Shown here: positions 9,674-48,993 of the stretch, in pieces
Layout: each line of letters starts with the position of its first letter
Position numbering within the stretch: position 1 is the stretch's first letter
From: Gonatopus flavifemur
Lineage: Eukaryota > Arthropoda > Insecta > Hymenoptera > Dryinidae
Assembly (NCBI GenBank): GCA_018340375.1
Contig: JAFFJZ010000007.1
Coordinates: 744,001 to 808,000 of the forward strand
DNA length: 64,000 nt
Direction: 5' to 3'
Program-made: the position numbers and the translations under genes
Notes under the pieces: generated by a model
Databases searched by the model: none
The model's input: only the letters and a program-made list of their open reading frames with translations
Told to the model about the DNA's origin: nothing

Positions 9674-9711
9674 CCCTGGTTAAAAAATCCAGTTGATTCT
9701 GACCAAATCTC
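9674..9711 (+). repeat. Left terminal inverted repeat of the giant element
   Basis: Starts CCCTGGTTAAAAAATCCAG and continues TTGATTCTGACCAAATCTC. Differs from the right end at two positions (T/A and A/G). The motif CAGATTTGGTCAGATTCAAC recurs inverted at about 9768-9787, a first subterminal repeat. Confidence 0.9.
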
Positions 9712-10279
9712 GTTAACCAACTGGGAAAGACTTGAGAGCATCGATGCCTGACGATTGAGCGTTGATCAGATTTGGTCAGATTCAACTGTAAGCAGTGGAG
9801 TAGATGTTGTGGAAGAGATTTGATGGGTAATATGCAGATGAAATGAGGGACGCTTACTTCTAGGCAAAAGGGGAGGTTAGATTCAACTGGATCTGATGCG
9901 GGTTGTACAAATTTATAGTCCAGATACAACTGGCATTTGGATAATTGAATTTTCACATGAGAATTTATCAGATGCAATGAGTGCTTCACTCATCGTAATT
10001 TGTTCAGGATCAATCGGTGGCTTGAGTATAGGAATCTAGGTTTTTAGTAGATCAGAAATATTATGGGAAATGACAAATCGATGAATAGGAATGAACCATC
10101 ACTTCACCTGGGATGGGGGAAGAGATTGGGAAATGAGATTTAATAGGAACTTGACCATAATCAACATTACAGCGATTAAATGAGAATCAGCCAGAACATT
10201 GTCCGAGCGAAATACTGATTAAAAACATTCATTTCTGATTAGCGCTTACCTTGTTCAGAGGACGTAAATGAATGAGAAC

Positions 10280-13200
10280 AAATGAGTAACAGTACGGAAA
10301 TGGTCAATTGGAATTAGGAAGTTGATAACATATGGGATTATGGAAATTAGTATCGGATTCATAACGGTAGAGACTGATTAGTCTCCACGGGATTCAATGG
10401 GTCATTTACACATTTTATTTGGAAATCGTTTGATGTTTGTAAGAAATAGGAGCTCTATGATGTGGGAGATGTAATGAGGCAAGTAACGATTTGAATGTTG
10501 GGATTCAATGAGTGTTTTGCAGAAACAGACCATCAGTGGAGAGTTCAGATTTTAAATGTTCGGAGCTGGTAGAGTCGATCGTATTCATCACGTGGAGCGC
10601 TCATCGGACTCCATGGGATTCAACGAGTGATTCATTGATCTGATATGCGTGTTGCTGAATCTTTGTGAAAAATAAGCGCTGAATGCCGAGTGAGATCTAA
10701 TGATGTATGTGCCGATTCAAGGGTTCAGATTGAATGAGTGTTTTACTACAACGGATAGTTGATAGAAATTTCAGGTTTTCAATGTTAGAAGCTGAGAGAC
10801 TCGATCGTATTCATTACGCGGATGGCTCATTGGATTCCACGGGATTCAATGAGTCATTCGCTGATAACCTATAGGAGTCGTTGAATCTTCGTAAAAAGTA
10901 AGTGCCGAATACCGAGTGAGATCTAATAACGTATGTGCCGATTCAAGGGTTCAGATTGAATGAGTGTTTTACTGCAACGGGTAGTTAGTGAAAATTTCAG
11001 ATTTTCAATGTTCGAAGCTAAGAGAGTCGATTGTATTCATCACGCGGATGGCTCATTGGATTCGATGGGATTCAACGAGTGATTCACTGATCTGATATGC
11101 GCGTTGCTGAATCTTTGTGAAAAATAAGCGCTGAATGCCGAGTAAGATCTAATGATGTATGTGCCGATTCAAGGGTTCAGATTGAATAAGTCTTTTACTG
11201 CAACGGATAGTTGATGGAAATTTCAGATTTTCAATGTTAGAAGCTGAGATACTCGATCGTATTCATCACGCGGATGGCTCATTGAATTCTATGGGATCCA
11301 ACGAGTGATTCACTGATCTGATATGCGTGTTGCTGAATGTTTGTGGAAAGTAAGCGCCGAATGCGAAGTGAGATGTAATGATGTATGTGCCGATTCAAGG
11401 GTTCAGATTGAATGAGTGTTTTACTGCAACGGATAGTTAGTGGAAATTTCGGATTTTCAATGTTAGAAGCTGAGAGACTCGATCGTATTCATTACGCGGA
11501 TGGCTCATTGGATTCCACGGGATTCAATGAGTCATTCGCTGATAACCTATAGGAGTCGTTGAATCTTCGTAAAAAGTAAGCTCCGAATACCGAGTGAGAT
11601 CTAATAAGGTATGTGCCGATTCAAGGGTTCAGATTGAATGAGTGTTTTACTACAACGGATAGTTGATAGAAATTTCAGGTTTTCAATGTTAGAAGCTGAG
11701 AGACTCGATCGTATTCATTACGCGGATGGCTCATTGGATTCTATGGGATCCAACGAGTGATTCACTGATCTGATATGCGTGTTGCTGAATCTTTGTGGAA
11801 AGTAAGCGCCGGATGCCAAGTGAGATGTAATAAGGTATGTGCCGATTCAAGGGTTCAGATTGAATGAGTGTTTTACTGCAACGGATAGTTAGTGGAAATT
11901 TCAGATTTTCAATGTTCGAAGCTAAGAGAGTCGATTGTATTCATCACGCGGATGGCTCATTGGATTCTATGGGATTCAACGAGTGATTCACTGATCTGAT
12001 ATGCGCGTTGCTGAATCTTTGTGAAAAATAAGCGCTGAATGCCGAGTGAGATCTAATGAAGTATGTGCCGATTCAAGGGTTCAGATTGAATGAGTATTTT
12101 ACCACAACGGATAGTTAGTGGAAATTTCGGATTTTCAATGTTAGAAGCTGAGAGACTCGATCGTATTCATCACGCGGATGGCTCATTGGATTCTATGGGA
12201 TTCAACGAGTGATTCACTGATCTGATATGCGCGTTGCTGAATCTTTGTGAAAAATAAGCGCTGAATGCCGAGTGAGATCTGATGATGTATGTGCCGATTC
12301 AAGGGTTCAGATTGAATAAGTCTTTTACTGCAACGGATAGTTAGTGGAAATTTCAAATTTTCAATGTTCGAAGCTAAGAGAGTCGATTGTATTCATCACG
12401 CGGATGGCTCATTGGATTCTATGGGATTCAACGAGTGATTCACTGATCTGATATGCGTGCTGCTGAATCTTTGTGAATAGTAAGCGCCGAATGCCGAATG
12501 AGATCTAATGATGTATGTGCCGATTCAAGGGTTCAGATTGAATGAGTGTTTTACTGCAACGGATAGTTAGTGAAAATTTCAGATTTTCAATGTTCGAAGC
12601 TAAGAGAGTCGATTGTATTCATCACGCGGATGGCTCATTGGATTCGATGGGATTCAACGAGTGATTCACTGATCTGATATGCGCGTTGCTGAATCTTTGT
12701 GAAAAATAAGCGCTGAATGCCGAGTAAGATCTAATGATGTATGTGCCGATTCAAGGGTTCAGATTGAATAAGTCTTTTACTGCAACGGATAGTTGATGGA
12801 AATTTCAGATTTTCAATGTTAGAAGCTGAGATACTCGATCGTATTCATCACGCGGATGGCTCATTGGATTCCACGGGATTCAATGAGTCATTCGCTGATA
12901 ACCTATAGGAGTCGTTGAATCTTCGTAAAAAGTAAGCTCCGAATACCGAATGAGATCTAATAAGGTATGTGCCGATTCAAGGGTTCAGATTGAATGAGTG
13001 TTTTACTACAACGGATAGTTGATAGAAATTTCAGGTTTTCAATGTTAGAAGCTGAGAGAGTCGATTGTATTCATCACGCGGATGGCTCATTGGATTCTAT
13101 GGGATCCAACGAGTGATTCACTGATCTGATATGCGTGTTGCTGAATGTTTGTGGAAAGTAAGCGCCGAATGCGAAGTGAGATGTAATGATGTATGTGCCG

Positions 13201-16200
13201 ATTCAAGGGTTCAGATTGAATGAGTGTTTTACTGCAACGGATAGTTAGTGGAAATTTCGGATTTTCGATGTTAGAAGCTGAGAGACTCGATCGTATTCAT
13301 CACGCGGATGGCTCATTGGATTCGATGGGATTCAACGAGTGATCCACTGATCTGATATGCGCGTTGGTGAATCTTTGTGGAAAATAAGCGCTGAATGCCG
13401 AGTAAGATCTAATGATGTATGTGCCGATTCAAGGGTTCAGATTGAATAAGTCTTTTACTGCAACGGATAGTTGATGGAAATTTCAGATTTTCAATGTTAG
13501 AAGCTGAGATACTCGATCGTATTCATCACGCGGATGGCTCATTGAATTCTATGGGATCCAACGAGTGATTCACTGATCTGATATGCGTGTTGCTGAATGT
13601 TTGTGGAAAGTAAGCGCCGAATGCGAAGTGAGATGTAATGATGTATGTGCCGATTCAAGGGTTCAGATTGAATGAGTGTTTTACTGCAACGGATAGTTAG
13701 TGGAAATTTCGGATTTTCAATGTTAGAAGCTGAGAGACTCGATCGTATTCATTACGCGGATGGCTCATTGGATTCCACGGGATTCAATGAGTCATTCGCT
13801 GATAACCTATAGGAGTCGTTGAATCTTCGTAAAAAGTAAGCTCCGAATACCGAATGAGATCTAATAAGGTATGTGCCGATTCAAGGGTTCAGATTGAATG
13901 AGTGTTTTACTACAACGGATAGTTGATAGAAATTTCAGGTTTTCAATGTTAGAAGCTGAGAGAGTCGATTGTATTCATCACGCGGATGGCTCATTGGATT
14001 CTATGGGATCCAACGAGTGATTCACTGATCTGATATGCGTGTTGCTGAATGTTTGTGGAAAGTAAGCGCCGAATGCGAAGTGAGATGTAATGATGTATGT
14101 GCCGATTCAAGGGTTCAGATTGAATGAGTGTTTTACTGCAACGGATAGTTAGTGGAAATTTCGGATTTTCAATGTTAGAAGCTGAGAGACTCGATCGTAT
14201 TCATCACGCGGATGGCTCATTGGATTCTATGGGATTCAACGAGTGATTCACTGATCTGATATGCGCGTTGCTGAATCTTTGTGAAAAATAAGCGCTGAAT
14301 GCCGAGTGAGATCTGATGATGTATGTGCCGATTCAAGGGTTCAGATTGAATAAGTCTTTTACTGCAACGGATAGTTAGTGGAAATTTCAAATTTTCAATG
14401 TTCGAAGCTAAGAGAGTCGATTGTATTCATCACGCGGATGGCTCATTGGATTCTATGGGATTCAACGAGTGATTCACTGATCTGATATGCGTGCTGCTGA
14501 ATCTTTGTGAATAGTAAGCGCCGAATGCCGAATGAGATCTAATGATGTATGTGCCGATTCAAGGGTTCAGATTGAATGAGTATTTTACCACAACGGATAG
14601 TTAGTGGAAATTTCGGATTTTCAATGTTAGAAGCTGAGAGACTCGATCGTATTCATCACGCGGATGGCTCATTGAATTCTATGGGATCCAACGAGTGATT
14701 CACTGATCTGATATGCGTGTTGCTGAATGTTTGTGGAAAGTAAGCGCCGAATGCGAAGTGAGATGTAATGATGTATGTGCCGATTCAAGGGTTCAGATTG
14801 AATGAGTGTTTTACTGCAACGGATAGTTAGTGGAAATTTCGGATTTTCAATGTTAGAAGCTGAGAGACTCGATCGTATTCATTACGCGGATGGCTCATTG
14901 GATTCCACGCGATTCAATGAGTCATTCGCTGATAACCTATAGGAGTCGTTGAATCTTCGTAAAAAGTAAGCTCCGAATACCGAATGAGATCTAATAAGGT
15001 ATGTGCCGATTCAAGGGTTCAGATTGAATGAGTGTTTTACTACAACGGATAGTTGATAGAAATTTCAGGTTTTCAATGTTAGAAGCTGAGAGAGTCGATT
15101 GTATTCATCACGCGGATGGCTCATTGGATTCTATGGGATTCAACGAGTGATTCACTGATCTGATATGCGCGTTGCTGAATCTTTGTGAAAAATAAGCGCT
15201 GAATGCCGAGTGAGATCTAATGATGTATGTGCCGATTCAAGGGTTCAGATTGAACAAGTCTTTTACTGCAACGGATAGTTAGTGGAAATTTCAGATTTTC
15301 AATGTTCGAAGCTAAGAGAGTCGATTGTATTCATCACGCGGATGGCTCATTGGATTCCATGGGATTCAACGAGTGATTCATTGATCTGATATGCGTGTTG
15401 CTGAATCTTTGTGAAAAATAAGCGCTGAATGCCGAGTGAGATCTAATGATGTATGTGCCGATTCAAGGGTTCAGATTGAATAAGTCTTTTACTGCAACGG
15501 ATAGTTAGTGGAAATTTCGGATTCTCAATGTTAGAAGCTGAGAGACTCGATCGTATTCATCACGCGGATGGCTCATTGGATTCTATGGGATCCAACGAGT
15601 GATTCACTGATCTGATATGCGTGTTGCTGAATGTTTGTGGAAAGTAAGCGCCGAATGCGAAGTGAGATGTAATGATGTATGTGCCGATTCAAGGGTTCAG
15701 ATTGAATGAGTGTTTTACTGCAACGGATAGTTAGTGGAAATTTCAGATTTTCAATGTTCGAAGCTAAGAGAGTCGATTGTATTCATCACGCGGATGGCTC
15801 ATCGGATTCTATGGGATTCAACGAGTGATTCACTGATCTGATATGCGCGTTGCTGAATCTTTGTGAAAAATAAGCGCTGAATGCCGAGTGAGATCTAATG
15901 ATGTATGTGCCGATTCAAGGGTTCAGATTGAATGAGTATTTTACCACAACGGATAGTTAGTGGAAATTTCGGATTTTCAATGTTAGAAGCTGAGAGACTC
16001 GATCGTATTCATCACGCGGATGGCTCATTGGATTCTATGGGATTCAACGAGTGATTCACTGATCTGATATGCGCGTTGCTGAATCTTTGTGAAAAATAAG
16101 CGCTGAATGCCGAGTGAGATCTAATGATGTATGTGCCGATTCAAGGGTTCAGATTGAATGAGTATTTTACCACAACGGATAGTTAGTGGAAATTTCGGAT

Positions 16201-17280
16201 TTTCAATGTTAGAAGCTGAGAGACTCGATCGTATTCATCACGCGGATGGCTCATTGGATTCTATGGGATTCAACGAGTGATTCACTGATCTGATATGCGC
16301 GTTGCTGAATCTTTGTGAAAAACAAGCGCTGAATGCCGAGTGAGATCTAATGATGTATGTGCCGATTCAAGGGTTCAGATTGAATAAGTCTTTTACTGCA
16401 ACGGATAGTTAGTGGAAATTTCAAATTTTCAATGTTCGAAGCTAAGAGAGTCGATTGTATTCATCACGCGGATGGCTCATTGGATTCTATGGGATTCAAC
16501 GAGTGATTCACTGATCTGATATGCGTGCTGCTGAATCTTTGTGAATAGTAAGCGCCGAATGCCGAATGAGATCTAATGATGTATGTGCCGATTCAAGGGT
16601 TCAGATTGAATGAGTATTTTACCACAACGGATAGTTAGTGGAAATTTCGGATTTTCAATGCTAGAAGGTGAGAGACTCGATAGTATCCATCACGTGGAGC
16701 ACTCATTGGATTCTATGGGATTCAATGAGTGATTCGCTGATGACCTATAGGAGTCGTTGAATCTTCGTAAAAAGTGAGCGACGAATACCAAGTGAGATTT
16801 AATGAGGTATCTGCCGATTCGAGGATTCAGATTTAATGAGTATTTCACTGCTACGGTTAGTCGTTGGAACTTCAGATTTTCAATATTCGAAGCTGAGAGA
16901 ATCAATCGTATCCATCACGTGGTACGCTGATTGGATTCAATGGGATTCAATGAGTGATCTACTGATCTCCTATGGCCGTTGTTCAATCTTTGTAAAAAGT
17001 AAGCGCCCAATGCCAAGTGAGATTCAATGAGGTATGTGTCGATTCGTGTATTCAGATTGAATGAATATTTCACTGCAACGGATTCTCAGCTCTCACTTTG
17101 AAGCTGAGACAGTTAATCGATTCATTTCGCTGAGCGCTCATCGGGATCAATGGGATTTAATCAGTGGTTTACTGATCTTATACAAGATTAGTTGAGTCTT
17201 TATACGTAGTGGATGCTCTTTGCCAAGTGAAGCATGTGACGATTCGAGTGTTGAGATCTAATAAGTGTTTTGCAGATGAA
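10280..17280 (+). repeat. Left subterminal satellite, 226-bp unit, about 30 copies
   Basis: The marker GCCGATTCAAGGGTTCAGAT recurs at 10711, 10937, 11163, 11390 and on to 16587, every 226-227 bp. There are about 27 well-conserved units, with degenerate copies at both edges (10280-10700 and 16690-17280). Each unit carries variants of TGGATTCTATGGGATTCAAC and GAGTGATTCACTGATCTG. Unit variants (for example the one with GATAACCTATAGGAGTCG at 10862, 11530, 12893 and 13800) recur in multi-unit blocks, indicating repeated unequal exchange. Small open frames inside are artefacts of the repeat. Confidence 0.92.
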
Positions 17281-19618: not shown

Positions 19619-19620
19619 AA

Positions 19621-20283: not shown

Positions 20284-20436
20284 TCGAACCTCTGGTATTG
20301 GGGTCCTGGGACAAAAACCGTTCCAGACCTAAAAACAATTTTTCGCTCAGTTCTGCCTGGTTTTTTTACGCAGGGACTGGAAGTCTATTAGCATGTTGCT
20401 GCTAATCTTGAGTTTTCAATCCTTGGTACTTTTCCG

Positions 20437-21992: not shown

Positions 21993-22094
21993 CTTAACAA
22001 GTATATACATATATACAAAATCAACCTTCGAACCGCGAAAATTTTCTTTCTACAATTAACAGTTCTTATAAAGAAGACATTGTTCTATGAGACA

Positions 22095-24761
22095 TTACTG
22101 AACATCTGGTAAACGTGGTGGAATACATACGTATGAATATTCGTTTTCGATCTCAATACGAACTAATTTCATTTTAATTTCATTAATAGAAATCTCAAAT
22201 CCATTATTGTCTATACTTACTATACATTTCATTTGCGGTATCTCAACCTCGTCCATTATGAAAGGTATAGTTATAATATTGCGTACCTTGACGCGACACT
22301 GGTTCCTATCCAAAAAGAAATAGCAAATTTGCACAATTACATCATTATTCAATTGAACAATAGTGTTATCACTTCTTTTGGGTCGAGTATAAATGATTCC
22401 ATTATATACTTTGCCATCATAAAAACATCTCCCATACTTATTACATTCTACATACTCTGTTTCTATTGGCAAAACCGCGTTTTCGTCTGATGTGTGAAGT
22501 TTCATAATATGCTTTTTCCTTTCGAATATGGTTTTACAAAATGCAGTACTATCATTGCATGACATTGAAACTAGAGCTTTTCTCATCCCATTCATTTCCA
22601 AACATTTGTTGGCTATTTGATCAAGTACTCCTTTTGGGCCAGAAACGCATTTCTTTATTTTTGCAATGTTTCCTTCGTGCGGATACGAAGAAGTTGCCCA
22701 CAATGGTCCAGCTTTTCTGACACTTTCCACAACATGAATGAGAGCATGAACGTTGAATGTCATAAAACCTGGACCATAAAAACCTTCGCTTTGTGCGACA
22801 AATGTTAATAAATCAATTTCGCACTGAACAAGGCATTCATGAGAAATTTTTGAATCCAACAAACAATACATACTCTTTACAAGGAGCATGTACGATTTGA
22901 AAACATCGTTTGGCAAAACATCGCGCAGACAAGGTAGACTGTCAAACAATAACCAAAATAACCAATCAGACGATTTCCATTTGGATTTTTTTTTCAAATA
23001 TTTTGGAAGTCTGTACATTTCTTTTGGTCTTCTAATATGAATCAATCTTTCATCTATAATGGTTCTTTGTGCAACTGTTAATTTAACCGGACTGCCAGGA
23101 CTTGTCCAGATATCCCATAACTACCGCACCACGCCCAGTAATACTCCGTGCTGATATTCAAATGGTAATCCCCAAACACAATCAAAATCAGGTATTGACA
23201 TCAATGATGATGAACCTTTCACTCCTCGTATTGGCTTCCCTAATTCTTCACTATCCTGTACGTCTTTCACGTATTTCATCATACTTCGTTTTTCAGGAGT
23301 GTCCTCGGTAATCAAATACCTCATTGCATTTGCTTGGTAAGTACCATAAATATAACACCAACTGCATCCTTGATATGCATTGAATTGAAATCTGTTGGTT
23401 AAAATCGGTCGAGCCACAGAATCTACTGGAAATAGCAACGGCAAGACATAAAATTTCACGTCCTTATTATTATCATCTTTCAAAGTTATTCCTTTGTTCA
23501 TTAGAGGTTCGATTTGTTTAATAAAAACATTCAAATAAAGATTCATCATTTTAGGAGTTGGTTCGACAGGAGTATACCATAAAGCACCTAAAAGTAATGT
23601 TTTGAATCTAATATCAAATGGAAATTCGTTTACAACGCATTGTGTAGACCATAAACTATAATTATAAGATTCAAGTATGGATGCACCGTCGATATTCACA
23701 TTTAAGGTAAGTACAATGTCATTACAGTGATTGGTCAAGAATTTATTCTTTTGAAATATTTCACCGTCACAAATATCAGATATATCGTCTGGCGAATGTT
23801 TAATACGTTTGATATTTTGAGATGAAATATTTATAACACTTTCCTGAATTCTCTTATCGTTGAGTATAGAACGTAACTGATACTCAAGATCAATTGTAAT
23901 AAAATAATTCAATGACGATGTTGATATCTTATACGATTCTTCACATTTTTCACAAATAATTTGTCTGGATTTTTGTAAATTGGTTTGGGTTAATGACTCA
24001 CCTAGAGTAACACAACATTTTTCACAATAGAATACATAAAGTTTTTTTTCATCACCTGGATTGAATAATTTTTTCGTAGAATATTTACTAATATTAACAT
24101 TTTTCCAAGCAGGACCAGCTAAAACTTTCGTATATTGAAAAATAACATACCTTGCTTCTGCTGAAAAATTGAATCTTAAAGCCATCACTTGAATCATATT
24201 TAATACTTGCTTTACGGTACACTGTGATTGTTCAAACATTATTGAATCCAATGCAAATGTTTGATGGAATTTCTTTGTGAAATCATCGGTATCGTTGTTA
24301 TCGACATCAATATATTCATCATCATCGTCTTTGTCATCATCGTCATTACCATCACTACCACCACTATCGCTATCATCGTCATACTCATCATTTTTATCAT
24401 TGCGCCCGTAATCGTATTCGATAATATCGCTGCTGTCGTTTTCGTCAGTAGAAGATTTAGTTTTCGAAGGAGCTTGATCATCAGCGACAGTGTTACCTTC
24501 AAGATGATGCATCTCAAAGTTCTTCGTGTCCCTCTCATCACTTAGAATGCCATCCGTTACATGCATTTCATCATCCGTTATTCCTTCACTTATACTTGGA
24601 GACGATTCATTTTTTAATGTTTGGTTATCTTCAATGTCAGCAAAAATGCTATCATGAACTTCACGACCTGCAACTCATTTAAATGACTCATGAAAATAAT
24701 GCTCGTATCGCAAACAAGTTTTTGGGCAAGAATGGAAACCGTCATAATCAGAGATGGGCAT
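22095..24761 (-). pseudogene. CACTA/EnSpm-like transposase, main exon with two in-frame stops
   Basis: The transposase would excise and insert the 39-kb element by a DDE/D RNase H-like mechanism. One continuous frame of 888 codons runs from an ATG at 24761 to a stop at 22095. It is broken by TGA at 24675-24677 (codon 29) and TAG at 23121-23123 (codon 547); both are single in-frame nonsense codons with homologous-looking sequence on each side. Visible features: a cysteine-rich start (HSCPKTC), a very acidic D-rich stretch near codons 114-154, two CxxC pairs (codons about 244 and 271), NVNIDGAS near codon 357 as the likely first catalytic Asp, FPVDSVARP followed by GCSWC near 466, and FNVHALIHVVESV near 672 followed by YPHEG, as in Tnp2-like proteins. 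A separate first exon lies at 28384-28486, so the ATG at 24761 may be internal. Broken in this copy, so mobilisation would need another source. Confidence 0.75.
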
Positions 24762-25082: not shown

Positions 25083-26390
25083 TCAATTGAAAATTCTATT
25101 CACTGCAAACTGAAGTGTGTTAAAAGTTATTACAACAACACACTTCGATTTGCAGTGTTCGTTTACCATGCGTTCCTTCCATTTTAATTTACAAGGAATA
25201 CCTACGAACAAAGACGTTTGGAATTACGAACACTTCTCATCTACTACGGACCAAAGCGATCAATTAGGCATAGAATCGAATAAAAAACAGTTTCATCCGC
25301 ATTTGATGTTCTTCTGCACTTTTTTAATGATTTACATCAAATGCGGATGGAACTTTTTTTATTGAATTTTATAGAATATTTGCATACATGCGTAATTGAT
25401 GGTTTTGATACCCTGTTGAAAAAGTCTCATAAATTCTCAGATACAAATCTCATTAGTTTATATAAATAGTGAAGAGTTTTTATCAAATTATATGCGGTTT
25501 CTATCCTAGAACTTATGGGCTTTTATGATTTCATATGAGCATGCGAAAATTTTATGAAAACTTCATAAGATTCAATCAGATTCATTTGCAAAATTTCATA
25601 AAGCCTTATACAATCAAGTTTTTCTACTAGATTTCATGCTCTCTAAATTTCTTGGAGTGAAAATCCACTCCTAAAGAGTGAAAATACTGCAAATCTAACA
25701 AGAGTGAGATCCCACTCTTAAGGAGTGAGTTTTCACTCCATAAAAGTGAATGATCACTCTTTACAACTAGTTAAAATTTCACTCCGATAGAGTGAAAACT
25801 CACCCTTATGGAGTGGAATCCCACTCTTGTTAGACTCGCAGTATTTTCACTGTTTAAGAGTGAATTCTTCACTCCAAGGAATTTATAGAGTGCGGTTTAC
25901 GTCCTACAGATAACCAGAATTTACTTGAATTTATGAGACGTTTTCAACAGGGTATCATTGTGAATATGTCCAAAAATAGCATTGAATTGGATGAAATTGG
26001 ATTGCATTTCTATTCGTTTCAATTGTACTTTTGTATCCATTGGCAAATTTTCATACGAATCCATTTAAAATTTCCACTACAGTCTGTTTCCAATGTTTGA
26101 TTGCAGCCCGGAAAAAACATTCACCGACGAGGTTCGTCGCCTCGACATACAATTTGGAACGAGAATCGGTGGATGAGGTAGATCGCTGCCTCCACGTCGC
26201 TTCTCCGACGAGCAACTGTCCATCCCCCGATTCTCCACCTAAGTTCTACGTCGAAGCGACGTAGTGGTTTTGTGTGGGAGATGTTCGTAATTCCAAATAT
26301 CTTTGTTTGTGTTTGTTGTAAATTACGATGAAAGCAACGCGTAGTAAACGGATATAAGATTTGTATTCGTTTTTGACGTGAATTTTTCAT
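25083..26390. mobile_element. Foldback element with nested insertions
   Basis: Arms near 25140-25235 (TTTGCAGTGTTCGTTTACCA, ACGAACAAAGACGTTTGGAA) and 26280-26360 (TTCCAAATATCTTTGTTTGT, TAGTAAACGGATATAAG) are diverged inverse copies. The space between holds a foldback pair TTCCATCCGCATTTGATG-like near 25290-25350, the 25411-25952 element and a short GTCGCTTCTCC/CGAAGCGAC palindrome. Confidence 0.45.
25411..25952. mobile_element. CCCTGTTGAAAAAG element, 2-bp TA duplication
   Basis: 542 bp with ends CCCTGTTGAAAAAGTCTCAT and the complement of ATGAGACGTTTTCAACAGGG; TA is duplicated at 25409-25410 and 25953-25954. A further foldback at about 25646-25893 consists almost entirely of GGAGTGAAAA and TTTTCACTCC motifs. 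Non-autonomous; the terminus and duplication size resemble the host element. Confidence 0.65.
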
Positions 26391-29160: not shown

Positions 29161-30049
29161 CTAGTGTGTTGAATTTTGGAAAAGTCCCATGTATGAATTA
29201 TATGGTTCATATATAGGTCACATACGTTTTATCAAAATCATGTATGAGACAAATGTGATTCATTCCCTTTAAGGAGTTTCTTTATTGCAAAAAAAAAACA
29301 CATTCTGTTGAAAATTAGAAATCAATGATGAATTATCAAAAACCAAACCTGCACATCAGTAGCGAATGACTGATTCGAACACTCATAAAAAATAATCCAT
29401 TTTCTCACTACTTTCCTATAAAAATTTTAAGCATTGTTTTTCATTAATACTCACTTTTCAAAGTAAGGAATTGTTTAAACTATAATATTCACTAAAAACG
29501 TATGAAAAACTTCAATGGAATTTTTCAAACAATGTAATAGACTGTAAATTCCTTCTCCTCGTTTGTACTTATTGTTTAATTGACACTGAGTAGAAATAAA
29601 AGTATATTCAAAGAAGATGTTCGTAACTGACATTTGTTACCGCTTATCCTTGAATTGAAGTTTGTTTTGATTCGATGTATTTCTTTATATATGCGGAAAC
29701 AAGAACGTTACTGGTCAGATTAAAGTATATGACACGTTCATTATAGAAATGTGACAAATGTCATGCGCATTATTGTCCATGAAAAAGTATCTAATAATTT
29801 ATGCAATTTATGATTACTTGTTTTTTATTGTATTGTGTTTCCAATAATTTTGTAGTAAATTAATTAGAACATCGCGTGACTTAGTCTACAGCATGGTTGC
29901 CGCATAAATATAGGTACAATAAGTCTATTGCTTGATTCTTTGCAATAAACATACTACCACAAGCTTTGCTCAGCTTGTAATGCTACATAGGGATCGTCCA
30001 TATATTACGTCACGGTTTCATATGTTTCGTTCTTTGTTGCCCCAACTCA

Positions 30050-32391: not shown

Positions 32392-35300
32392 GTGGATGGG
32401 AAAGAGAAATTAAACACTGAAAGAACCGAAGAAATTTTGAGAGCAGAAAATAAACGACTAAAGGAAATCATTTCCAAGCAAAATAAAGACATAAAATCAC
32501 TGAAAAATGAATTGACCGCTAAGGATCATATGCTTAAATCCGAAGAAGAAAGAAATGGCACCTTACAAACTTTCAACGATAAGTATCAGAATACAGTGAT
32601 TGAAACCGTCGCAGAAATGAAAGGTATATCATTTAAATCCTTGAGAACATTTTTCTATGTTAACGAAATTCCCCCACAATTTTTTCGAGAATTTAAATTT
32701 ACTTTGAACTGATTGAGGGATTATATATATGTATATATATATATAAATATGTAATATGTGTATATATATTAAAATAAGTTATTCACGTACGAAATGCAAT
32801 TCACATGCACCAAGAAAAAATAAGTATATTACACATCAATTCATTTAACGAATATGCATATACATGTGCACGCAAGAATCGTAGTAATAATAATACACTA
32901 TAAAAACTTTTATGCCTGGAACTTTATTCATACGTGATGAAAGCAATGTCCATTCATGTACTTGAAAAATTTATCAAGATTTTAATTACATATGAATGAG
33001 AATTCAATTACCAAATTATAGTATTATGGGTAACGTAATGCACTAAACATTTAAAAATGCATTACATGTAAGTGAATTCTCAATTCAATCACCGAGTATT
33101 GAAAAATTCATTCAAAAGTGTTTTTGGGAAAGTTAATGAAATCCCAAGGTATTTTGAACCCTAGAACAGGCACGCAAAAAACAAAAAAAATTTCAAATGG
33201 CTGTAATCTCATTTGAAACTAAACGGTTACTAAAGTTACTTTGGGCAGATTATGTTTGTCAGGGGGTATAGTTTTGAAAGATTTGGATGAAGAACTATCT
33301 CCAATAAAGAGATGCTCAGATGCTGAGAAGGAAAAAACGCCCTGGGGTCTCACAGACCCCATGTACCTGTTCTGGGGTTGACAGTAGAAATTGAAATTTT
33401 ATTCATTCAAGCGACATGAAGTTTCAGGCCTCTATTATCTTTCGAGTTCTTCAAATACATTGTGAGACATCCGTTTCTTTTTATGTTTCAAGGGGTGGCA
33501 ACTAGTTAGAATTTTCAAGATATCGATTTTTTTCTTTTGTTTGTTTCGTTGAAGTATGATGTTTCAAAAACATTCTCTGAAAATTTCAAATCAATCCGAT
33601 GAACCGTTTCCGACATATCCTACAATTAGTGAAGGAATCCAGGACCCCCAATAACAAGTACACTGGATAAAATCAGCGGTCTCAAGTACAATCAAACTCA
33701 AATAGTGTTGAATTCAACACCGATTTGTATCAATTCGATTCTAAGTAGAGTGATTTCAACACCACAGCCCACACTGGACTTTTTAAGAACATTTTCGATG
33801 TTATTTCCACTCCGTACTTTTTATAATGCACAGAAAAAATTTTACATTAAAGATTTATCAAACAAAATATCGTACCTGTAGGATATACCTGATTATGTCG
33901 ATAGAAACTATAACTATGTATTTTCTTATTACTCCGCATATAAAACTTAAAAAGAGTTGTGATAATCTGTCGCATACTCATGGTTCTCTTCGTCATAGTA
34001 AAGGTATATCCCACGGCTATAAATATATTAATTTTTCCTACATAATTTTCTCCGTGTGTAGTCGTTCTTCTCGAAAGAATGTTTTGTTTGATAACGACTG
34101 TAACCAGTATAATTCAGAAATCATCCAATGGATTTCGATGAAATTTTCACAGCTTATCAATAGTACTAAAAAGTAGTGCTCAATCAAAGGATTTTCATTA
34201 TTTTGGAAATTTTCAGTTTAACCAACAATAAACTAATGCTTTTTTACTTGGAAAATTGGGAATAAACTGTTAAAAGCCGCCATTTTATTGATTTGAAAAA
34301 AAAAAATTAAAATCTTCGATGAAGCACTAGATTTATTATTTGTTCCATCGATTTTAGATGATCCCGTGAGATGTTGTGGGGTGCTTACAAAGTGGTTTAC
34401 CACGACCAGATGGTCTGGATCACTCACTTTTGATTGGTTGAAATTTAATTCTCAACGAATCAAAAGTGAGTGGTCCAGACCATCTGGTAGTGGTCAGCTA
34501 CTTCGGAAACACGTGTGATGGTCAACGCAAAGTAATCGCTGCGGAGGGTAATGTAAAAAAAGAACAGCGATATTTTTATGAACAATCAATTTCTTTCGTT
34601 GAATTTTCGGCAAAAAAAAATTGGAACATATGGTATAAAAAATTCACGTCATCGGTTTTAGGAAATGACCTTCATTATTATAAACAAAAAAATACTCATC
34701 TTTTTATACCTTTTATCAGATATCACTTGTTAAGGAAAGACACTAGGGTGATAACCATTTCCAAGTGCCTATTTCCCATTCTAATCATCGTTTTTTTCCC
34801 TCAGAAAGGAGTAAAGTTATAAAGAAAAAACAACTTCGACATTGTATTAGAAATAAAAGTATATTGAAAAATGTTTGTGGAGTAAGCACACACTTTATGT
34901 AAGCATACACTTAAGCATAAGCGCAATACGCAGAGACTTCATGTGAGGTTCTGTGCATTGGGTTTACGCTTACGCTTATGCTTATTTTGTCTTAGTACAC
35001 TCTTGTGCTTACTCATTTATATGAGGAAAAAACGAAAAAAATGGCGGCGCACAAGCCGTGTTATAACACAATTGGTTTTGACCAGTCTGTCCGCACACTG
35101 AGAGAAAGGTACCTAGCTGCGGCAACTAAAATTTAGTTGTCCCAGCTAAATTTTAGTCAGCGTAAATAAAAGTCCAGTTGTCTGATATATGAATGAAACA
35201 ATTTATTCAAGGAAACCAAAAAATTTAGCTGTGACAAATAAAATTTATTTGGTTCAACTAAATTTCTATTAAGGTTGACTAAATTCTCTAGCTGTCTAAT

Positions 35301-38300: not shown

Positions 38301-41300
38301 GATTCGACTTCCAGTATTGATACCTTTCCCCAAGAGAACCAAAATCTGTATACATCCAGGGGACGTCCATACACGTCTCTTAGACGTCCTATGGAGGTGC
38401 AATTTAAGTGTCCGGCGGACATTCGAAATTCCAAAGAACGTGAGAGAGACGTATGTGGACGTCCCTTGGACGTACGCACGTTTTTGGTTCTCTTGGGGTT
38501 GTGATTGATGAATTGTCTATCATTATTGCTCGGAACATGGAATATGTAATCATTTGTTCTCATTTTATTCAAGACGCATGTGGGATGTGATTGCTGGATC
38601 ACCAGCGAACAATTTGATAGCTTGCTCGCTCTGAAAGATCCTGTAATATTTACAAGAGATCTTGCCAGAATCTTATTTAGTGAGCAAGTCCTTCAAAAAA
38701 GTACGGTCACTGGCAGGCGTTCCAATAACACCAGTGCTACCAAACAACCCGAAAAATTGGACGGAAATAAAATGAACGCTATAAAAGGTATCTTTCAAAA
38801 ATTTGTATGTGCACATTTTTATTTTGATGAAGAATTTTTATAAAAGTATGACCAACTTTGTAGAGTTTGTGAATTATGTGCAAACTTTCTATGAGAAGTA
38901 GTGTTTCACTATCGTCTTGCCGAGATTGACTAGGTCTCGACTTCGGTCTCGATTTAGTCCTGAAATTTATAATTTCGTCTCGAGTGAAACACTCATGCAA
39001 AATATAAACAAATTTATTTGGCACGAAAAAGAGAAGCGAGTTTAGAAATACTCATACAGCCCTGAAGATTCCATGAAGATTGCAGAAATCTAACATTTGA
39101 AGCATTGAAATATTTCAGTGATATTTTTGGAATATTCTTTTGTAATATTCATTCTTGTGATATTTCTGGAATACTTCAGAAACATTTTTGAAGTATTCCA
39201 TTGTAATATTTATTCTTTTAATATATCTGAGATATTGCAAATAGCTACAATTTCGATTGACAGGTTTTTGACATATTGTTGTAAAAGTTCATTGAAATGT
39301 AATGAAGGTGCAAGATTGAAATATAATTGAAGGCTCACGGTCTAAGCCTGTTCTAACATTCATACAAGTTTTTCCTTCGGGTTCCAGGGATGAGTGAAAT
39401 TTCCAAGTTTCAGATCATTTGAATGAAGAGTAAATGATAAGGATCAATTCAAAGTTGTAAGGATGTTCACTGCAGGGGGTTCAGCGGAATTGACATGTAA
39501 CACGGAAACAAAAAACAAGGAATAATCGCATGAACACCTATCGCGTATCGATCGTAAGGAGGCATTCTTGGAATAAAAGCAAGGACCTATGCACTATTCC
39601 GAATGCGGCAGCGATAAGTGCCTCGGTTCATGCTTTTATTCCAAGAGTTCCACGGGATGAACGCGTGAGACTTATTGCAATTTATGCGTGACAAATATTC
39701 ACGGGACAACCCCTACATTTTTCTCTCCGTGAATCTGCGAAGTTTTTTTGATTCATTCGTTTGTATACGTAATTGAGGCCCGGATGCAATAAGGGGCCTA
39801 ACGCTCGAAACCGCGAAAAAGCCGTGACGTCACACGCCAAAATCAAAAGTTGGAATTCCAGAATTTGAGAAAAAACTGGGTGATAGGTTTTGAAAAATCA
39901 ATGTAAGTGTTTTTCTTGGATTAATATTTTCCGAGAAAAAAATGGAAACTGCACATTTGTTCGTACCGAAAATTATTGTTTTTCAATATTTAACTCGTTC
40001 TACCTCAGTCATTTTTCAATGTATCATAATGAATGTTGAATATTCTGATTCGCAAGGCTTTTCCGATTACGAAGATGTTGCAGATTGTCAAAACCGCATT
40101 GACAAATACAAGAAAGAAAGGTAAAAAAATGAATTTGGCAAAAAATGTTGGCAAGTTTAGACCGCAGGCCCTTCGATTGATATAATACTGAAATGTTTGG
40201 GGCTATATAGGTATTTGAGAAACCGAGAAAAATTTGTATTTCATGTATAATTTTCGTTTCATTTATAGTTTAATCGTCTTTCTTGTTATGTTATCGACAT
40301 TTTCAATATTTCCAGAGGCTCTACAGTTTTTTTTAAATAAGCGAGAATTCAAGCACATCTCTCAAGCATCAAAACAGGAGATGGTCAAGAAAGTAAATGA
40401 TACTTTATGTTCACTGATTTCTGACGTGAAAAGGAAATTGAAAAAAAGAAAAGGTAATTTTTCATTCATTCATAATTAATTTTTCATTCAGCAAAATATC
40501 AATAAGTCCCATAATCATGATGATCATCATGATCATGTGTTAATGATAATCATGATGTTGAATGTTTTTTGGTCAATAACTTGTGTTTTCCTTTTACTCA
40601 TTCGAATCTCCTTGAAAAAATCGATAAGTTCTGAGGTTTCTTATTAAGTTTTTTTTTTAATACTCTCAAAAATGGTTTTTAAGATCCACAATCTCACTTA
40701 GATAGGATTTCGTGCGAGAACATACTTTGTGAGTTTATTGCATGCAAAAAAGTAGCAAGCACAAGCAGTTTGTTAGCAGTGCACTGGAATCCATCTTTAC
40801 GAACATTTGAATCGCAATACTCCAAGTTAAAAGCCACATTTTCAATCTTTTATGTCTCGATCATATTGTTTTTAATGTACCTATTTTGTGACGGCAATTG
40901 ATTCTTCAGTACTTCAACTACACGGAGAGAATCCTACACTAATGATTACTCTTGACTACATGACTGACTCGTGTTATGAAAACAAATGAAGTCTAACAGC
41001 ATTGATAACTGTATTAACACGATCCAGTCGTGTGAAAACAGCACTGATTCGTGTCAATACAGTAACTAATGCTGTTAGACTTCATTTGTTTTTATAACAT
41101 GAGCCAGTCGTGTAGTAAAGAGTAATCATTAGTGCAGGATTCTCTCCGTGTATACTTCCTGGATTCAAAAGTCCATTAAATCCCATTGATTAATGAGATT
41201 TAATACAAACTTTGCGATGGTCAATAATCATTCACGCTCGTTCAAACCTGTTAAAACCCTTTGGAACCGATTGAATTAATGGGACTGAATAAAAATTGTG

Positions 41301-42451
41301 TAGGTTTGAATGGGCATTTTCCATTGCAAAGTTTGTATCAAATTTCATTAATTAATGGGATTCAATAGACTTCTTTTTACCACAGCTATATCACATTTTT
41401 ATCAATTTATAATGCGTTATTCAAAGTTGCTGGAACCACCTTAAGGAAAAATTTGAGATATCCGAATTTTGGTGAGGAAGACGGGATTTATTGCAAGAAA
41501 GGACGTTTTTCATGTATTTATACAACTGCTCGACTATTATTTTGAGACGGTACATTTTAATTGGAAAGCGGATTCGTTTCCCCAGTGAAGTAAGCTATGT
41601 TTCAGCTGCAGCCGATTGCCTCCTTGTAATAAAAGCATCAGTTTCCGCAGTGCAATCATGAATTTCCAAGATTTAATCATCATAATATGATTACCACAGG
41701 TATCTATATTACACTAGATCGCGAACGACCCCGTAAATTGTACATAAAAAGTAGCACACAAAAATATGTACGAACAGTGTGCAAATGCGCATGCGTTAAA
41801 TAAGCCCCCTGTTATAGTTGAAGTTGATTGGTTTAAATTGGTGGAGCCTTATTCCGAGCACGCGCACTCACTTATGTACATAAGTTTGATACATGTTTTT
41901 GTGGGGCTATGTACTACCGTACGTTAGCAATCTAGTGGAATATAGATATCTGTGATGATTACCAACTTCTCACAAATTCACTAAGAATATTTTTCACCAA
42001 TGATTTTTGCTTTAAACTTGTTACAGTTTCTCTAGTATTAATGCAAACAATCTTTTCGTTTAGTCACTGAACATTTAAAAAATTCACATCTTTTGTATAC
42101 TACCACTACCGTTTTTTGTGTTTTTGATGTTGTGTTTTAGGAGCATGCGCCGATAAAAAAGGAGAAGAGATAATTATCACCGTCGATCCATACAGTGGTG
42201 GTTCTTCTGAATCAGCGAGTCAAGAAATTAATGATGAAGAAGAAGAAGAGGAAGAAGAAGAAGAAGAAAACGAAAATCATGGAAACCAAAAACAAGGAGA
42301 AGATAGAGAATATAAAGAAGATGTAGAAAGTGGAGAAGATGAAGGAGATCGAGTAGATGAAGAAGGTGCAGGAGGTGAAGAAAGTGAGAACGGTGAAGAA
42401 GATGGAGAAAATGGTGGAGATGCTTTAATCCATGAACAGGATTTAGATTAG
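32392..42451 (+). CDS. BEN-domain protein with coiled coil and acidic tail, five exons, 5' end not found
   Basis: BEN domains bind DNA and chromatin proteins; here the product is probably a nuclear partner or cargo of the giant transposon (inference). Exons: 32392-32623, 36608-36702, 38574-38787, 40316-40453, 42141-42451. All have AG/GT borders, and the phases agree throughout (1, 0, 1, 1), giving 329 residues to a TAG at 42449-42451 with no stop. Residues about 8-70 form a K/E-rich heptad coiled coil. Residues 110-226 form the BEN domain: GCDCWITSEQFDSLL, then DPVIFTRDLARILF, TVTGRRSNN, LDGNKMNAIKEAL, and a basic C-terminal helix ending KRKLKKRK. Residues about 245-329 are a Glu-rich tail. 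The first exon starts after acceptor CACTAACGTATGTACTAG, so an upstream exon with the ATG is missing from the model. The gene is divergent from the transposase, and its introns are full of MITEs. Open throughout, unlike the transposase. Confidence 0.75.
34390..34500. repeat. Foldback in BEN-gene intron 1
   Basis: Arms CCAGATGGTCTGGATCACTC and GAGTGGTCCAGACCATCTGG. The short frames either side (33826-34176, 34466-34822) have no family features, and I leave them out. 33100-33680 and 34830-35340 are AT-rich with small hairpins only. Confidence 0.6.
35872..35949. repeat. Compact hairpin in BEN-gene intron 1
   Basis: ACAGCACACCCACCGACGTC and GACATCGGTGGGTGTGCTGT form arms; the loop is GC-rich (CTCCGCGGAGCTTCCACGGAG). 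Related to the CACCCACCGATGTCCACGTC segment at 31117-31140 and to 36454-36598. Confidence 0.6.
36454..36598. repeat. Foldback abutting the exon 2 acceptor of the BEN gene
   Basis: Arms AGCACATTCACCAATCGCGG-type on the left and GGTTGTGTGCT on the right, with GTCGCATCTCCG and CGGAGATGCGAC inside. It ends 9 bp before the AG acceptor at 36606-36607, so the branch-point region is element-derived. Confidence 0.55.
37737..37855. mobile_element. hAT-like MITE (CAGGGTTGC) in BEN-gene intron 2
   Basis: Ends CAGGGTTGCCAG and TCTGCAACCCTG; flanks AATACAAG and AATAGAGG match at 6 of 8 bases. 36703-37736 shows no other feature. Confidence 0.5.
38320..38500. repeat. Foldback in BEN-gene intron 2
   Basis: CCCCAAGAGAACCAAAA and TTTTTGGTTCTCTTGGGG bound arms with GGGGACGTCCATACACGTCTC and GTCCCTTGGACGT. 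A second foldback just left (about 38138-38268) has arms AAGGGGCTTCGAGCGCT and AGCGCTCGAAGCCCCTT. Confidence 0.65.
38840..40026. other. Intron 3 of the BEN gene, left part; small repeats only
   Basis: Contains a GTCTCGA and TCGAGAC cluster (38905-38990), a stretch of GAATATTC-like motifs (39110-39240) and a foldback at about 39545-39650 with arms TTCTTGGAATAAAAGCA and TGCTTTTATTCCAAGA. Confidence 0.45.
40030..40121 (+). other. Possible alternative exon in the BEN-gene region
   Basis: The ATG at 40030 opens a codon-like run (NVEYSDSQGFSDYEDVADC, then QNRIDKYKKE) ending at a GT donor (AAAG/GTAAAA). It would end in phase 2, while the next known exons begin in phase 1, so it does not fit the main transcript. 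It could be an alternative first exon, a relic or chance. Confidence 0.25.
40919..41154. repeat. Foldback in BEN-gene intron 4
   Basis: Arms ACACGGAGAGAATCCTACAC and GTGCAGGATTCTCTCCGTGT; inner AAATGAAGTCTAACAGCAT and ATGCTGTTAGACTTCATTT. Confidence 0.7.
41170..41395. repeat. Foldback in BEN-gene intron 4
   Basis: AAAGTCCATTAAATCCCATT and its diverged inverse AATGGGATTCAATAGACTT; inner TACAAACTTTGC and GCAAAGTTTGTA. Confidence 0.55.
41690..41965. repeat. Foldback in BEN-gene intron 4
   Basis: GATTACCACAGGTATCTATAT and the inverse ATATAGATATCTGTGATGATT, with TTATGTACATAA as an internal palindrome. Confidence 0.55.
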
Positions 42452-44756: not shown

Positions 44757-44918
44757 ACTTGAATTAGGGGTGTCCACGGCGTGCTCAGTTTGCTTCGCGA
44801 CATGTTCAGTTCACTGGTTCGGTGGCTCCGCGGGTGTCTGCGCGGAGGTGTACCAGCGAACTGAACTTGTCGCGAAGCAAATTGAGCAATCCATGGACAC
44901 CCCTGACTTGAATTGTGT
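44757..44918. repeat. Foldback MITE at the inner edge of the right satellite
   Basis: GGGGTGTCCACGGCGTGCTC and GAGCAATCCATGGACACCCC; inner TTTGCTTCGCGACATGTTCA and TGAACTTGTCGCGAAGCAAA. The frame at 44722-45207 is this palindrome read through. Confidence 0.65.
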
Positions 44919-44919
44919 T

Positions 44920-47900
44920 TTTGCATCGGATTCAATACGAACCCATAGGTTCAACCGGAATTCGATGAAATTTATCAACCAGGGTTGGGTGGCACCTTCC
45001 CTATATCTGACCCTGCTAGCGGGTCGATTAATTATCGTTATGCAGTATTTTTATCTCCATTTTGAAAGTAGTTACGAATGGTCCGATTACGCATTAAATC
45101 TAATTAACGACAGGTTCAATACCTCACTCAAATGTGCGTCAGGAAAAGTTTTGATTCTCACCGAGTCTCATCTTGGTACTACCTGTTCAATCTACATCAC
45201 CCACTGAGCGATGTGCTCATTAATTCTTATGAGCCAATCGTCTCCAACCAAAGAATACTGTATGCTAGAATCTCGGTCAAATTACGCATTAAATCTCATT
45301 CGGAGCGTCCGGTTATCACATTTCCAATCTGCCGCTAGTATACGGCAAAATGCATATTGATTCTCATCATTTTACTGCCTGGCATATCCAAATCAGTCTA
45401 CCGTCTGTACTCCGATTAATATACCCATAAGGCAGTAATTTCATACTTTCAATATCTGAAGTCATTACGAATGGTCTGATTACGCATCAAATCCCATTGA
45501 CCACAAGTCCAATACACCACTTAAATGTGCGTCAAAATACTCTTTGATTCTCACCAAATCCCATGTTCATAGTGCCTTTTCAATCTCCACCACTCACTGA
45601 GCGATGTGCTCATTAATTCTCATGAGCCAATCGTCTCCAACCAAAAAATACTGTATGCTAGAATCTCGGTCAAATTACGCATTAAATCTCATTCGGAGCG
45701 TCCGGTTATCTCATTTTCAATCTTCCATTAATATACGTCAAAATGCATATTGATTCTCATCATTTTACTCCCTAGCATATCCGAATCAGCCTACCGTCTG
45801 TACTCCGATTGATACCCATGAAGCAGTAATTTCATACTCTCAATATCGGAAGTGATTACTAATGGTCCAATTACGCATTGAATCCCATTGACCACAAGTC
45901 CAATACACCACTCAAATGTGTGTCAGAATACGCTTTGATTCTCACCGAATCTCATGTTCGTACTGCCTTTTCAATCCATATCACTCACTGAGCGATGTGC
46001 TCATTAATTCTTATGAGCCAATCGTCTCCAACCAAAAAATACTGTATGCTAGAATCTCGGTCAAATCACGCATTAAATCTCAGTCGGAGCGTCCGGTTAT
46101 CTCATTTTCAATCTTCTATTAGTATACGTCAAAATGCATATTGATTCTCATCATTTTACTGCCTGGCATATCCAAATCAGTCTACCGTCTGTACTCCGAT
46201 TAATATACCCATAAGGCAGTAATTTCATACTTTCAATATCTGAAGTCATTACGAATGGTCTGATTACGCATCAAATCCCATTGACCACAAGTCCAATACA
46301 CCACTTAAATGTGCGTCAAAATACGCTTTGATTCTCACCAAATCCCATGTTGGTACTGCCTTTTCAATCTCCATCACTCACTGAGCGATGTGCTCATTGA
46401 TTCTCATGAGCCAATCGTCTCCAACCAAAAAATACTGTATGCTAGAATCTCGGTCAAAGTACGCATTGAATCCCATTGACCACAAGTTCAATACACCACT
46501 TAAATGTGCGTCAAAATACGCTTTGATTCTCACCAAATCTCATGTTGGTACTGCCTTTTCAATCTCCATCACTCACTGAGCGATGTGCTCATTAATTCTT
46601 ATGAGCCAATCGTCTCCAACGAAAAAATACTGTATGCTAGAATCTCGGTCAAATTACGCATTAAATCTCATTCGGAGCGTCCGGTTATCTCATTTTCAAT
46701 CTTCTATTAGTATACGTCAAAATGCATATTGATTCTCATCATTTTACTGCCTGGCATATCCAAATCAGTCTACCGTCTGTACTCCGATTAATATACCCAT
46801 AAGGCAGTAATTTCATACTTTCAATATCTGAAGTCATTACGAATGGTCTGATTACGCATTAAATCCCATTGACCACAAGTCCAATACACCACTTAAATGT
46901 GCGTCAAAATACTCTTTGATTCTCACCAAATCCCATGTTGATAGTGCCTTTTCAATCTCCACCACTCACTGAGCGATGTGCTCATTAATTCTTATGAGCC
47001 AATCGTCTCCAACCAAAAAATACTGTATGCTAGAATCTCGGTCAAATTACGCATTAAATCTCAGTCGGAGCGTCCGGTTATCTGATTTTCAATCTTCTAT
47101 TAGTATACGTCAAAATGCATATTGATTCTCATCATTTTACTGCCTGGCATATCCAAATCAGTCTACCGTCTGTACTCCGATTAATATACCCATAAGGCAG
47201 TAATTTCATACTTTCAATATCTGAAGTCATTACGAATGGTCTGATTACGCATTAAATCCCATTGACCACAAGTCCAATACACCACTTAAATGTGCGTCAA
47301 AATACTCTTTGATTCTCACCAAATCCCATGTTCATAGTGCCTTTTCAATCTCCACCACTCACTGAGCGATGTGCTCATTAATTCTTATGAGCCAATCGTC
47401 TCCAACCAAAAAATACTGTATGCTAGAATCTCGGTCAAATTACGCATTAAATCTCATTCGGAGCGTCCGGTTATCTCATTTTCAATCTTCCATTAATATA
47501 CGTCAAAATGCATATTGATTCTCATCATTTTACTCCCTAGCATATCCGAATCAGCCTACCGTCTGTACTCCGATTGATACCCATGAAGCAGTAATTTCAT
47601 ACTCTCAATATCGGAAGTGATTACTAATGGTCCAATTACGCATTGAATCCCATTGACCACAAGTCCAATACACCACTCAAATGTGTGTCAGAATACGCTT
47701 TGATTCTCACCGAATCTCATCTTGGTAGTGCCTTAGCAATCTACATAACCCATTGAGCGACATGCTCATTAATTCTCATGAGCCAGTCGTCTTTAACCAA
47801 GGAACACTGCATGTTAGAATGCCGGTCAAATTACGCACTAAATATGATTCACAGCGTCCGTTTATTTCATGTAGAATCTTTCGCTATCACACGTCAAAAT

Positions 47901-47960
47901 TCATATTGATTCTCATCATTGTACTACTTAGCATATCCGAATCAGTCAACCGTCTGTACT
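44920..47960 (+). repeat. Right subterminal satellite, 392-bp double unit, about 7 copies
   Basis: The marker GAGCCAATCGTCTCCAAC recurs at 45231, 45624, 46015, 46408, 46603, 46995, 47386 and, diverged, 47777. The step is 391-393 bp except one of 195 bp, showing that the unit is two diverged half-units of about 196 bp. The phrase AATCCCATTGACCACAAGTC reads GGTCAATGGGATT on the other strand, like the left array's ATGGGATTCAAC, so the arrays are inverted relative to each other. Peptide-like frames in it are artefacts. Confidence 0.9.
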
Positions 47961-48955
47961 CCCATTGATTCTGATAACGTTGCAACTTCACAACCCTCAA
48001 TCTTGGAAGTCACAATGAATCATCCTATCACGCATTGAATTCCATCAACAGCATGTCTTGAGTTACGATTAATATCTGACGTAAATGCACATCAGATTAC
48101 GCATCAGTTCTCATCGAATCCCACCGTGATACTGTTTATTCATTCGGCATTAATCATGTGGCCAAATGCTGAATGATTCTCGTTGTCTAATGGCTTCGAT
48201 TATATCAATAATGCGCGTGAAATTTCATGGTTGAATGACTCATACAATCTGAGGAAGAGCACTCGGTAATCATCTATCAATTCTCATCGGATCGTACTTC
48301 AAAACCCCTACTAATTCTCCTCTATTATCGTAAGTGGATTACTCATCTGATCTGGAAGTGTTTGGAGGCGTTACTCCGATTGTTTCTCAGAGTGTAATTC
48401 CTCCTTGATACTCATAATTATACGTAATAATGACCGATCAAATCACATATTGAATCCCACCTAAATGCCCATCAGAATACACATTATTTCTCACTTCGCT
48501 TGATCTCCATGGTACCTGTTCATACCAATCAGATCATTGAGCAGCATGCCAATTGATTCTCATTGTGCTATTTGTTTTATATACTCAATATGCGTGCAGT
48601 AATGATCCGATTGTTTCCCGTTCAGAGTACCAGGCGACTACATGTGAGATCTGACGTGAGTGCACGTTCAATGGCATCTTTATTCCCAAAGAAATTCATC
48701 GTCGTATTCCCTATTTCAGCTATTGAATTCAAGATTTCACTCGAATTAAGCTTGTATATAATTACCCACTGAATCCCACAAAATTCAGTTGTATTAGGCC
48801 AATTAAATCCCACTGTATTCTTCGAATAATCTCAGTGGTATACTGTTTGTTTCTGTTTCATCAATGACACTTGCCCGATCACCCATCTCATTGGATTTAA
48901 CTATCATTATGCATGGACAAAGGTCTGGCCAAATCTGACATGTTCATGAGTTGAT
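47961..48955. repeat. Degenerate outer part of the right subterminal region
   Basis: Keeps scattered CATTGATTCTCATT, TGAATCCCA and GCACATCAGATTACG motifs of the satellite at lower density. No gene. Confidence 0.6.
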
Positions 48956-48993
48956 GAGATTTGGCCAGAATCAACTGGTTTTTTTAACCAGGG
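48956..48993 (-). repeat. Right terminal inverted repeat of the giant element
   Basis: Read inward on the minus strand it begins CCCTGGTTAAAAAAACCAG and continues TTGATTCTGGCCAAATCTC. Followed by the TA duplication at 48994-48995. Confidence 0.9.

Follow-up and report, generated by a model that had tools for sequence, protein, structure and literature searches.

Evidence for a giant CMC-type cut-and-paste transposon carrying a BEN-domain gene in the dryinid wasp Gonatopus flavifemur

Introduction

Several described systems resemble, in one trait or another, the element reported here. Jozin, a CACTA element of Chenopodium quinoa, measures 16.5 kb and has an array of a 171-bp satellite close to one of its ends (PMC8978399). 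CNEST of Cryptococcus neoformans is 7.2 kb long, with 33-bp inverted ends in CACGG and 2-bp TA duplications, and the same paper gives an 8-bp duplication for KDZ1 (PMC12810828). EnSpm elements of Ectocarpus reach 15.2 kb, and red algae are cited as having giant EnSpm elements that carry accessory genes (PMC12477816). Teratorn and the Polintons are large animal DNA elements with inverted ends, the former discussed in connection with size limits (PMC6431247). Here, we analyze 64,000 nucleotides of the wasp Gonatopus flavifemur (GenBank assembly GCA_018340375.1, contig JAFFJZ010000007.1), a stretch called the window throughout (C370:744001-808000), taken from an assembly of 636 Mb in 402 contigs. 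A preliminary description of the window had outlined a single CACTA-like transposon of 39.3 kb with inverted ends, a TA duplication, a BEN-domain gene, a separate third gene and two large satellites, and had thought it undescribed. Our analysis makes it highly probable that this is a giant cut-and-paste transposon of the CACTA/Mirage/Chapaev (CMC) group, 39–47 kb per copy, which together with its transposase and BEN gene has transposed as a unit on at least three occasions.

Results

One unit at three loci

The two termini of the element (9674..48993) are identical at 36 of 38 bp in inverted orientation, and an inverted-repeat finder, with the TA included, pairs 9672-9717 with 48950-48995 (46 nt, 91%). 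Joining the flanks with one TA retained yields a single open frame of 124 codons, ...CPIYSQMREEMF..., with VECPIY and SQMREEMF meeting at the joint; from its motif, we take this frame to be the C-terminal part of the open reading frame (ORF) of a long interspersed nuclear element (LINE). The inverted ends, the flanking TA and the restoration of the frame on excision all stand as first described.

A query of the assembly with the outermost 100 bases on the left gave at least 40 scored matches among 110 candidates, so that all copy counts are lower bounds. Within the 60 kb fetched around each of the top two matches lies a full copy with both ends and the cargo: one of 40,749 bp with AA on both sides (C35:8035507-8076255), and one of 46,523 bp in reverse orientation with TA on both sides (C68:4028739-4075261). 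The preliminary description had tied its reading to the existence of a second locus with the same ends; two were found, both full-length. Excluding the arrays, the window copy and C35 share 99.17% identity over 29,839 bp, the window copy and C68 96.22% over 25,553 bp, and C35 and C68 96.06% over 30,670 bp. Ends, transposase and BEN exons follow one another in the same order at the three loci, upholding the claim of a single very large CACTA-like element with a multi-exon BEN gene, and the cargo compared between copies includes the transposase and the BEN exons in each.

The nucleotide matches among the three copies extend up to the inverted ends, and the 30 bp on either side of the element are different at each locus, which points to separate insertions and not to duplication of one locus. 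The high identity between the window copy and C35 might suggest that a single insertion was multiplied into three large copies by segmental duplication, but the extent of the matches, the unlike flanks and the duplications of TA, AA and TA in the window, C35 and C68 leave that explanation with very little probability. Judging by their flanks, the three are separate insertions of one unit that has moved at least three times. The large tandem arrays near both ends, a usual site of assembly errors, and the nested repeats inside all three full copies raise another alternative, namely a faulty assembly, or two smaller elements that are unrelated and face each other with their outer ends by chance. 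The common order of parts at three loci and the rejoined flank frame speak against it, and the C35 and C68 copies disfavour it to the point where we give it almost no weight beside a single mobile unit.

The dinucleotides next to the element are equal in five of the six copies with two ends, three of which are shorter relatives (C133, C218 and C349) described below. Specifically, TA/TA flanks the window copy, C68 and C218, AA/AA flanks C35, CA/CA flanks C133, and an imperfect TA/TG flanks C349. The TA duplication first reported thus holds for the window copy in length and letters, but TA is not universal, and a strict TA target is ruled out by the AA and CA duplications.

The transposase

The in-frame TAG of the transposase sits at a residue that is invariant in 10 aligned sequences, and a likely splice acceptor for its 5′ exon(s) lies near 24668. 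A part of 341 amino acids matches DUF4218 at 29.2 bits (cut-off 27), and Transposase_21 scores above its cut-off in the homologue P0001, which is 43% identical to the window protein. In the alignment of 10 sequences, D418, E667, C437, C440, H643 and H647 are invariant and D329 is conserved at 90% or more; guided by the motifs of the family, we take D329/D418/E667 to be the DDE triad, accompanied by the C2 and H2 residues. Structure comparison of the modeled protein points to a RAG1/Transib-like core, and the C-terminal part is predicted to be BAH-like. A sequence search of solved structures gave no match at E <= 0.4, and the NCBIfam scan returned nothing relevant. On sequence grounds, the transposase belongs to the CMC group and is of the Tnp2/DUF4218 type, and DUF4218, the DDE and C2/H2 residues and the modeled fold bear out the CACTA-like transposase of the preliminary description.

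The BEN gene

When the first and second BEN exons are spliced in phase, the product matches PF10523 at 32.4 bits (cut-off 23.2), confirming that the element contains a BEN-domain gene. BEN is a sequence-specific DNA-binding domain, going by the title of a reference cited in PMC5704228. The acidic exon continues in phase after the second BEN exon and then runs into a stop; by splice phase, what had been taken for a separate third gene fits as the BEN gene's final exon, and the same phase disfavours a gene of its own. A Pfam six-frame scan of window positions 17101-44702, bounded by the arrays, placed only DUF4218 and BEN above cut-off. The coiled-coil exon probably belongs to the BEN gene, and because its phase is incompatible with a direct join to 38574, at least one exon is absent from our model or the coiled-coil exon belongs elsewhere. 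This exon is open in both C35 and C68. The first BEN exon is open in C68 and has one stop in C35, and in C68 the second BEN exon has two extra bases and the last exon is matched only in part. At 4% divergence, the ratio of nonsynonymous to synonymous substitution rates (dN/dS) between C35 and C68 is too noisy to serve as proof of exons.

The window copy lacks a segment of ~6 kb that C35 and C68 retain in versions about 95% identical; the two sides of the break have one or two bases in common. Open frames in this segment look like 5′ exons of the BEN gene, which the segment probably holds; Pfam found nothing in the C35 segment in six frames.

The gene may have no part in transposition at all, being passive or host-derived cargo captured in Pack-type fashion, and we rate this at a little under an even chance. 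Consistent with passive cargo, composite queries found no relatives of the BEN gene at E <= 1e-3, which is a weak absence as the exon borders are partly guessed; the C35 copy has the stop in its BEN exon; and other giant elements hold accessory genes of unknown function (PMC12477816). On the other side, the gene has been retained with its introns in all three copies, including the one that is 4% diverged, a weak argument because the copies share one ancestor.

Subterminal arrays and a 13-bp motif

The left array of 226-bp units counts 29.1 units in the window, 6.0 in C35 and 3.0 in C68, and the right array of 393-bp units counts about 7, 4.1 and 2.9, respectively. We derived the 13-bp motif ATGRGATTYAATG from words that the left end has in common with the right end read in reverse, and counted it allowing at most two mismatches. 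The left region (9674-17100) has 76 occurrences on the plus and four on the minus strand, and the right region (45001-48993) has 43 on the minus and none on the plus strand; elsewhere, both strands together hold 17 occurrences in the 27.9-kb interior and three in the flanks (24.7 kb). Those parts of the ends that lie outside the arrays contain 10, as compared with an average of 0.22 over 100 permuted motifs. No permuted motif reached the counts of ATGRGATTYAATG in the ends outside the arrays, on the left or on the right; one reached 50 on the left, because repeats allow such counts. The motif was chosen from the same ends in which it is counted, and the short relatives offer a fairer test: C133, C218 and C349 hold 27, 19 and 19 occurrences against 1.0–1.3 expected, although they are 71–80% alike to the giant ends where aligned and so are not independent. 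Both large satellites are present as tandem arrays, but the inward-facing motif they share identifies them as subterminal repeats of the element that have been amplified, rather than as unrelated cargo.

Where the right array borders on the interior, 44950-44985 (minus strand) reads CCCTGGTTGATAAATTTCATCGAATTCCGGTTGA, which resembles the terminal repeat and is perhaps an old or internal end.

Short relatives

Three short, diverged relatives, C133, C218 and C349, match C35 over 510–680 bp at the left, over 190–375 bp at the right and in parts of the 393-bp unit. Their nucleotide matches to C35 are limited to the ends (eight longest matches), and tblastn found no transposase in any of them. Another four left-end loci (L029-L032), in which no right end appeared over 4.9 kb, are similar to the short family; L030, L031 and L032 have tandem arrays of their own behind the left end, with units of 121, 449/452 and 273 bp. 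The group seems prone to grow arrays at its ends.

Size and decay of the copies

The window copy is a single very large element, as described, but 39.3 kb is not its native size, which is ruled out by the loss of ~6 kb and by a left array expanded to 29 units (6 and 3 in the others). C68 carries four extra inserts, three of which look by their ORFs like mariner, hAT and LINE elements, and the fourth of which, 4.9 kb long, contains many inverted repeats. An insert in C35 measures 1.85 kb and is of the inverted-repeat kind. Absent from C68 but present in the window copy are five stretches of 220–634 bp, of which several have inverted arms, and a further stretch of 2.0 kb. In the same copy, 25406-25957 is bounded by 31-bp inverted arms (97%) with TACCCTGTTGAAAAAG, ~490 bp apart, and looks like a small element with ends reminiscent of the giant element's.

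The transposase is disrupted differently in each full copy, by one stop in the window, two stops in C35, and a frameshift and two stops in C68. An intact transposase is ruled out for all three, and we regard the copies, with their disabling mutations, as relics unable to move themselves. Most simply, each would have arrived intact or been moved in trans, and decayed afterwards.

Table 1 Features of the element in the window and of its short relatives
Feature	Position in window	Strand	Remarks
Target duplication, left copy (TA)	9672..9673		adjoins left end
Left terminal inverted repeat	9674..9711	+	38 bp, CCCTGGTTAAAAAATCC...; same left end in C35 and C68
Left subterminal array	10502..17083	+	226-bp unit, 29.1 units; 13-bp motif dense on plus strand
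CMC-type transposase, main ORF	22098..24674	-	859 codons, one in-frame TAG
Site of segment absent from window copy	29941..29942		6,009 bp in C35, 5,768 bp in C68
Coiled-coil exon, probably of BEN gene	32392..32623	+	AG and GT at borders
BEN domain, first exon	38574..38787	+
BEN domain, second exon	40316..40453	+	in-phase join with first
Acidic last exon of BEN gene (putative, by splice phase)	42141..42451	+	ends in TAG
Right subterminal array	45072..47966	-	393-bp unit, ~7 units; 13-bp motif dense on minus strand
Right terminal inverted repeat	48956..48993	-	38 bp; 36/38 match to left repeat
Target duplication, right copy (TA)	48994..48995		adjoins right end
Short relative C133			4,196 bp; flanks CA/CA; contains mariner-like ORF
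Short relative C218			3,423 bp; flanks TA/TA
Short relative C349			4,497 bp; flanks TA/TG

Surroundings of the element

Next to the right flank, an ORF run at 50055-53589 (minus strand) has an RNase H-like match (9.9e-5, below cut-off) and is presumably a DIRS-like retrotransposon. A 184-bp tandem repeat occupies 57441-59010 in two blocks of apparently opposite orientations. At 1009-1671 (minus strand) lies an ORF with a deoxynucleoside kinase domain (PF01712, 1.3e-19), possibly an NDUFA10-like host gene.

Discussion

Several observations weigh against a giant CMC transposon that moves with its BEN gene. Taken over the whole transposase, DUF4218 scores 26.8 bits, just below the cut-off of 27, and Transposase_21 is below cut-off in the window protein. 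The ends read CCCTG, not CACTA; the dinucleotides flanking C349 are unequal (TA/TG); and the orientation of ATGRGATTYAATG is mixed in the short relatives, the inward rule holding for the giant copies only. Two composite queries found no homologue of the BEN gene, and binding of the ends by its product is a proposal only. Finally, the transposase is broken in the window, C35 and C68, which makes present activity doubtful.

We nevertheless favour the giant CMC transposon, for which the following mechanism may be envisaged. A DDE transposase with a RAG1/Transib-like core would cut at the CCCTGG ends and insert the element with a 2-bp duplication, mostly TA, if its chemistry is that of the family. 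The subterminal regions, packed with the inward 13-bp motif, are amplified into arrays whose unit number varies between copies. The BEN protein most likely binds DNA of the element, and may act as a TnpA-like accessory factor at the ends, by analogy with plant En/Spm, or as a regulator of chromatin or transcription; the TnpA-like role is a proposal. The short relatives retain only the ends and were probably mobilized in trans. In a bolder version, which we consider unlikely, the BEN protein replaces TnpA: it would recognise the 13-bp motif, bridge the ends and enable excision of 40–47 kb, with the arrays (3–29 units) serving as binding platforms and the BAH-like tail steering integration.

Large cut-and-paste elements are rare in animals, and three insertions of 39–47 kb with a multi-exon gene provide a natural case against a size limit. 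Long, motif-dense ends combined with a dedicated DNA-binding partner suggest one answer to that limit. The putative RAG1/Transib-like core and BAH-like tail would also enrich the comparative biology of RAG-related recombinases.

By its transposase, ends and duplication, the element is a member of the CMC group: it has a Tnp2/DUF4218-type transposase, DDE and C2/H2 residues, and inverted ends with a 2-bp duplication, within the 2–4 bp range. It shares subterminal repeats at both ends with CACTA elements proper, but its terminal letters are CCCTGG, not CACTA or CACTG, and its duplication is 2 bp, not 3 bp, so it is not a strict CACTA element. The 2-bp duplication also separates it from KDZ. Polintons/Mavericks have DNA polymerase, integrase and capsid genes and make 6-bp duplications; here the duplication is 2 bp, and Pfam scans of 17101-44702 and of the ~6-kb segment found no such domain.

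The comparison with RAG1/Transib rests on the core fold predicted for the transposase; identity is about 10%, the duplication is 2 bp, and the predicted C-terminal part is BAH-like. Transib makes a 5-bp duplication. From Teratorn and the Polintons, the element differs in transposase and duplication length, and no viral replication or capsid domain is present in the frames scanned. CNEST and its animal relatives in the CMC group likewise have a CMC transposase, duplications of 2 bp (TA) and inverted ends of comparable length, but CNEST is 7.2 kb long with CACGG ends against 39–47 kb and CCCTGG here, and the part of its description consulted mentions no cargo. Very large EnSpm elements also occur in red and brown algae, and those of red algae are reported to have accessory genes; they differ in host, cargo and size.

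Plant CACTA/EnSpm elements such as En/Spm and Jozin share the Tnp2/DUF4218-type transposase, inverted ends and subterminal repeats, whereas the wasp element has a 2-bp instead of a 3-bp duplication, CCCTG ends, arrays at both ends, a BEN gene, a length of 39–47 kb and an animal host. The literature within reach, beyond which lie most subscription journals, yielded no CMC element that carries a BEN gene, nor one of this size in an animal. The view that the element is undescribed holds only in part: giant algal EnSpm elements with accessory genes and satellite-bearing plant CACTA elements are known; what is new here is a size of 40–47 kb, an animal host, BEN cargo and motif-dense arrays at both ends.
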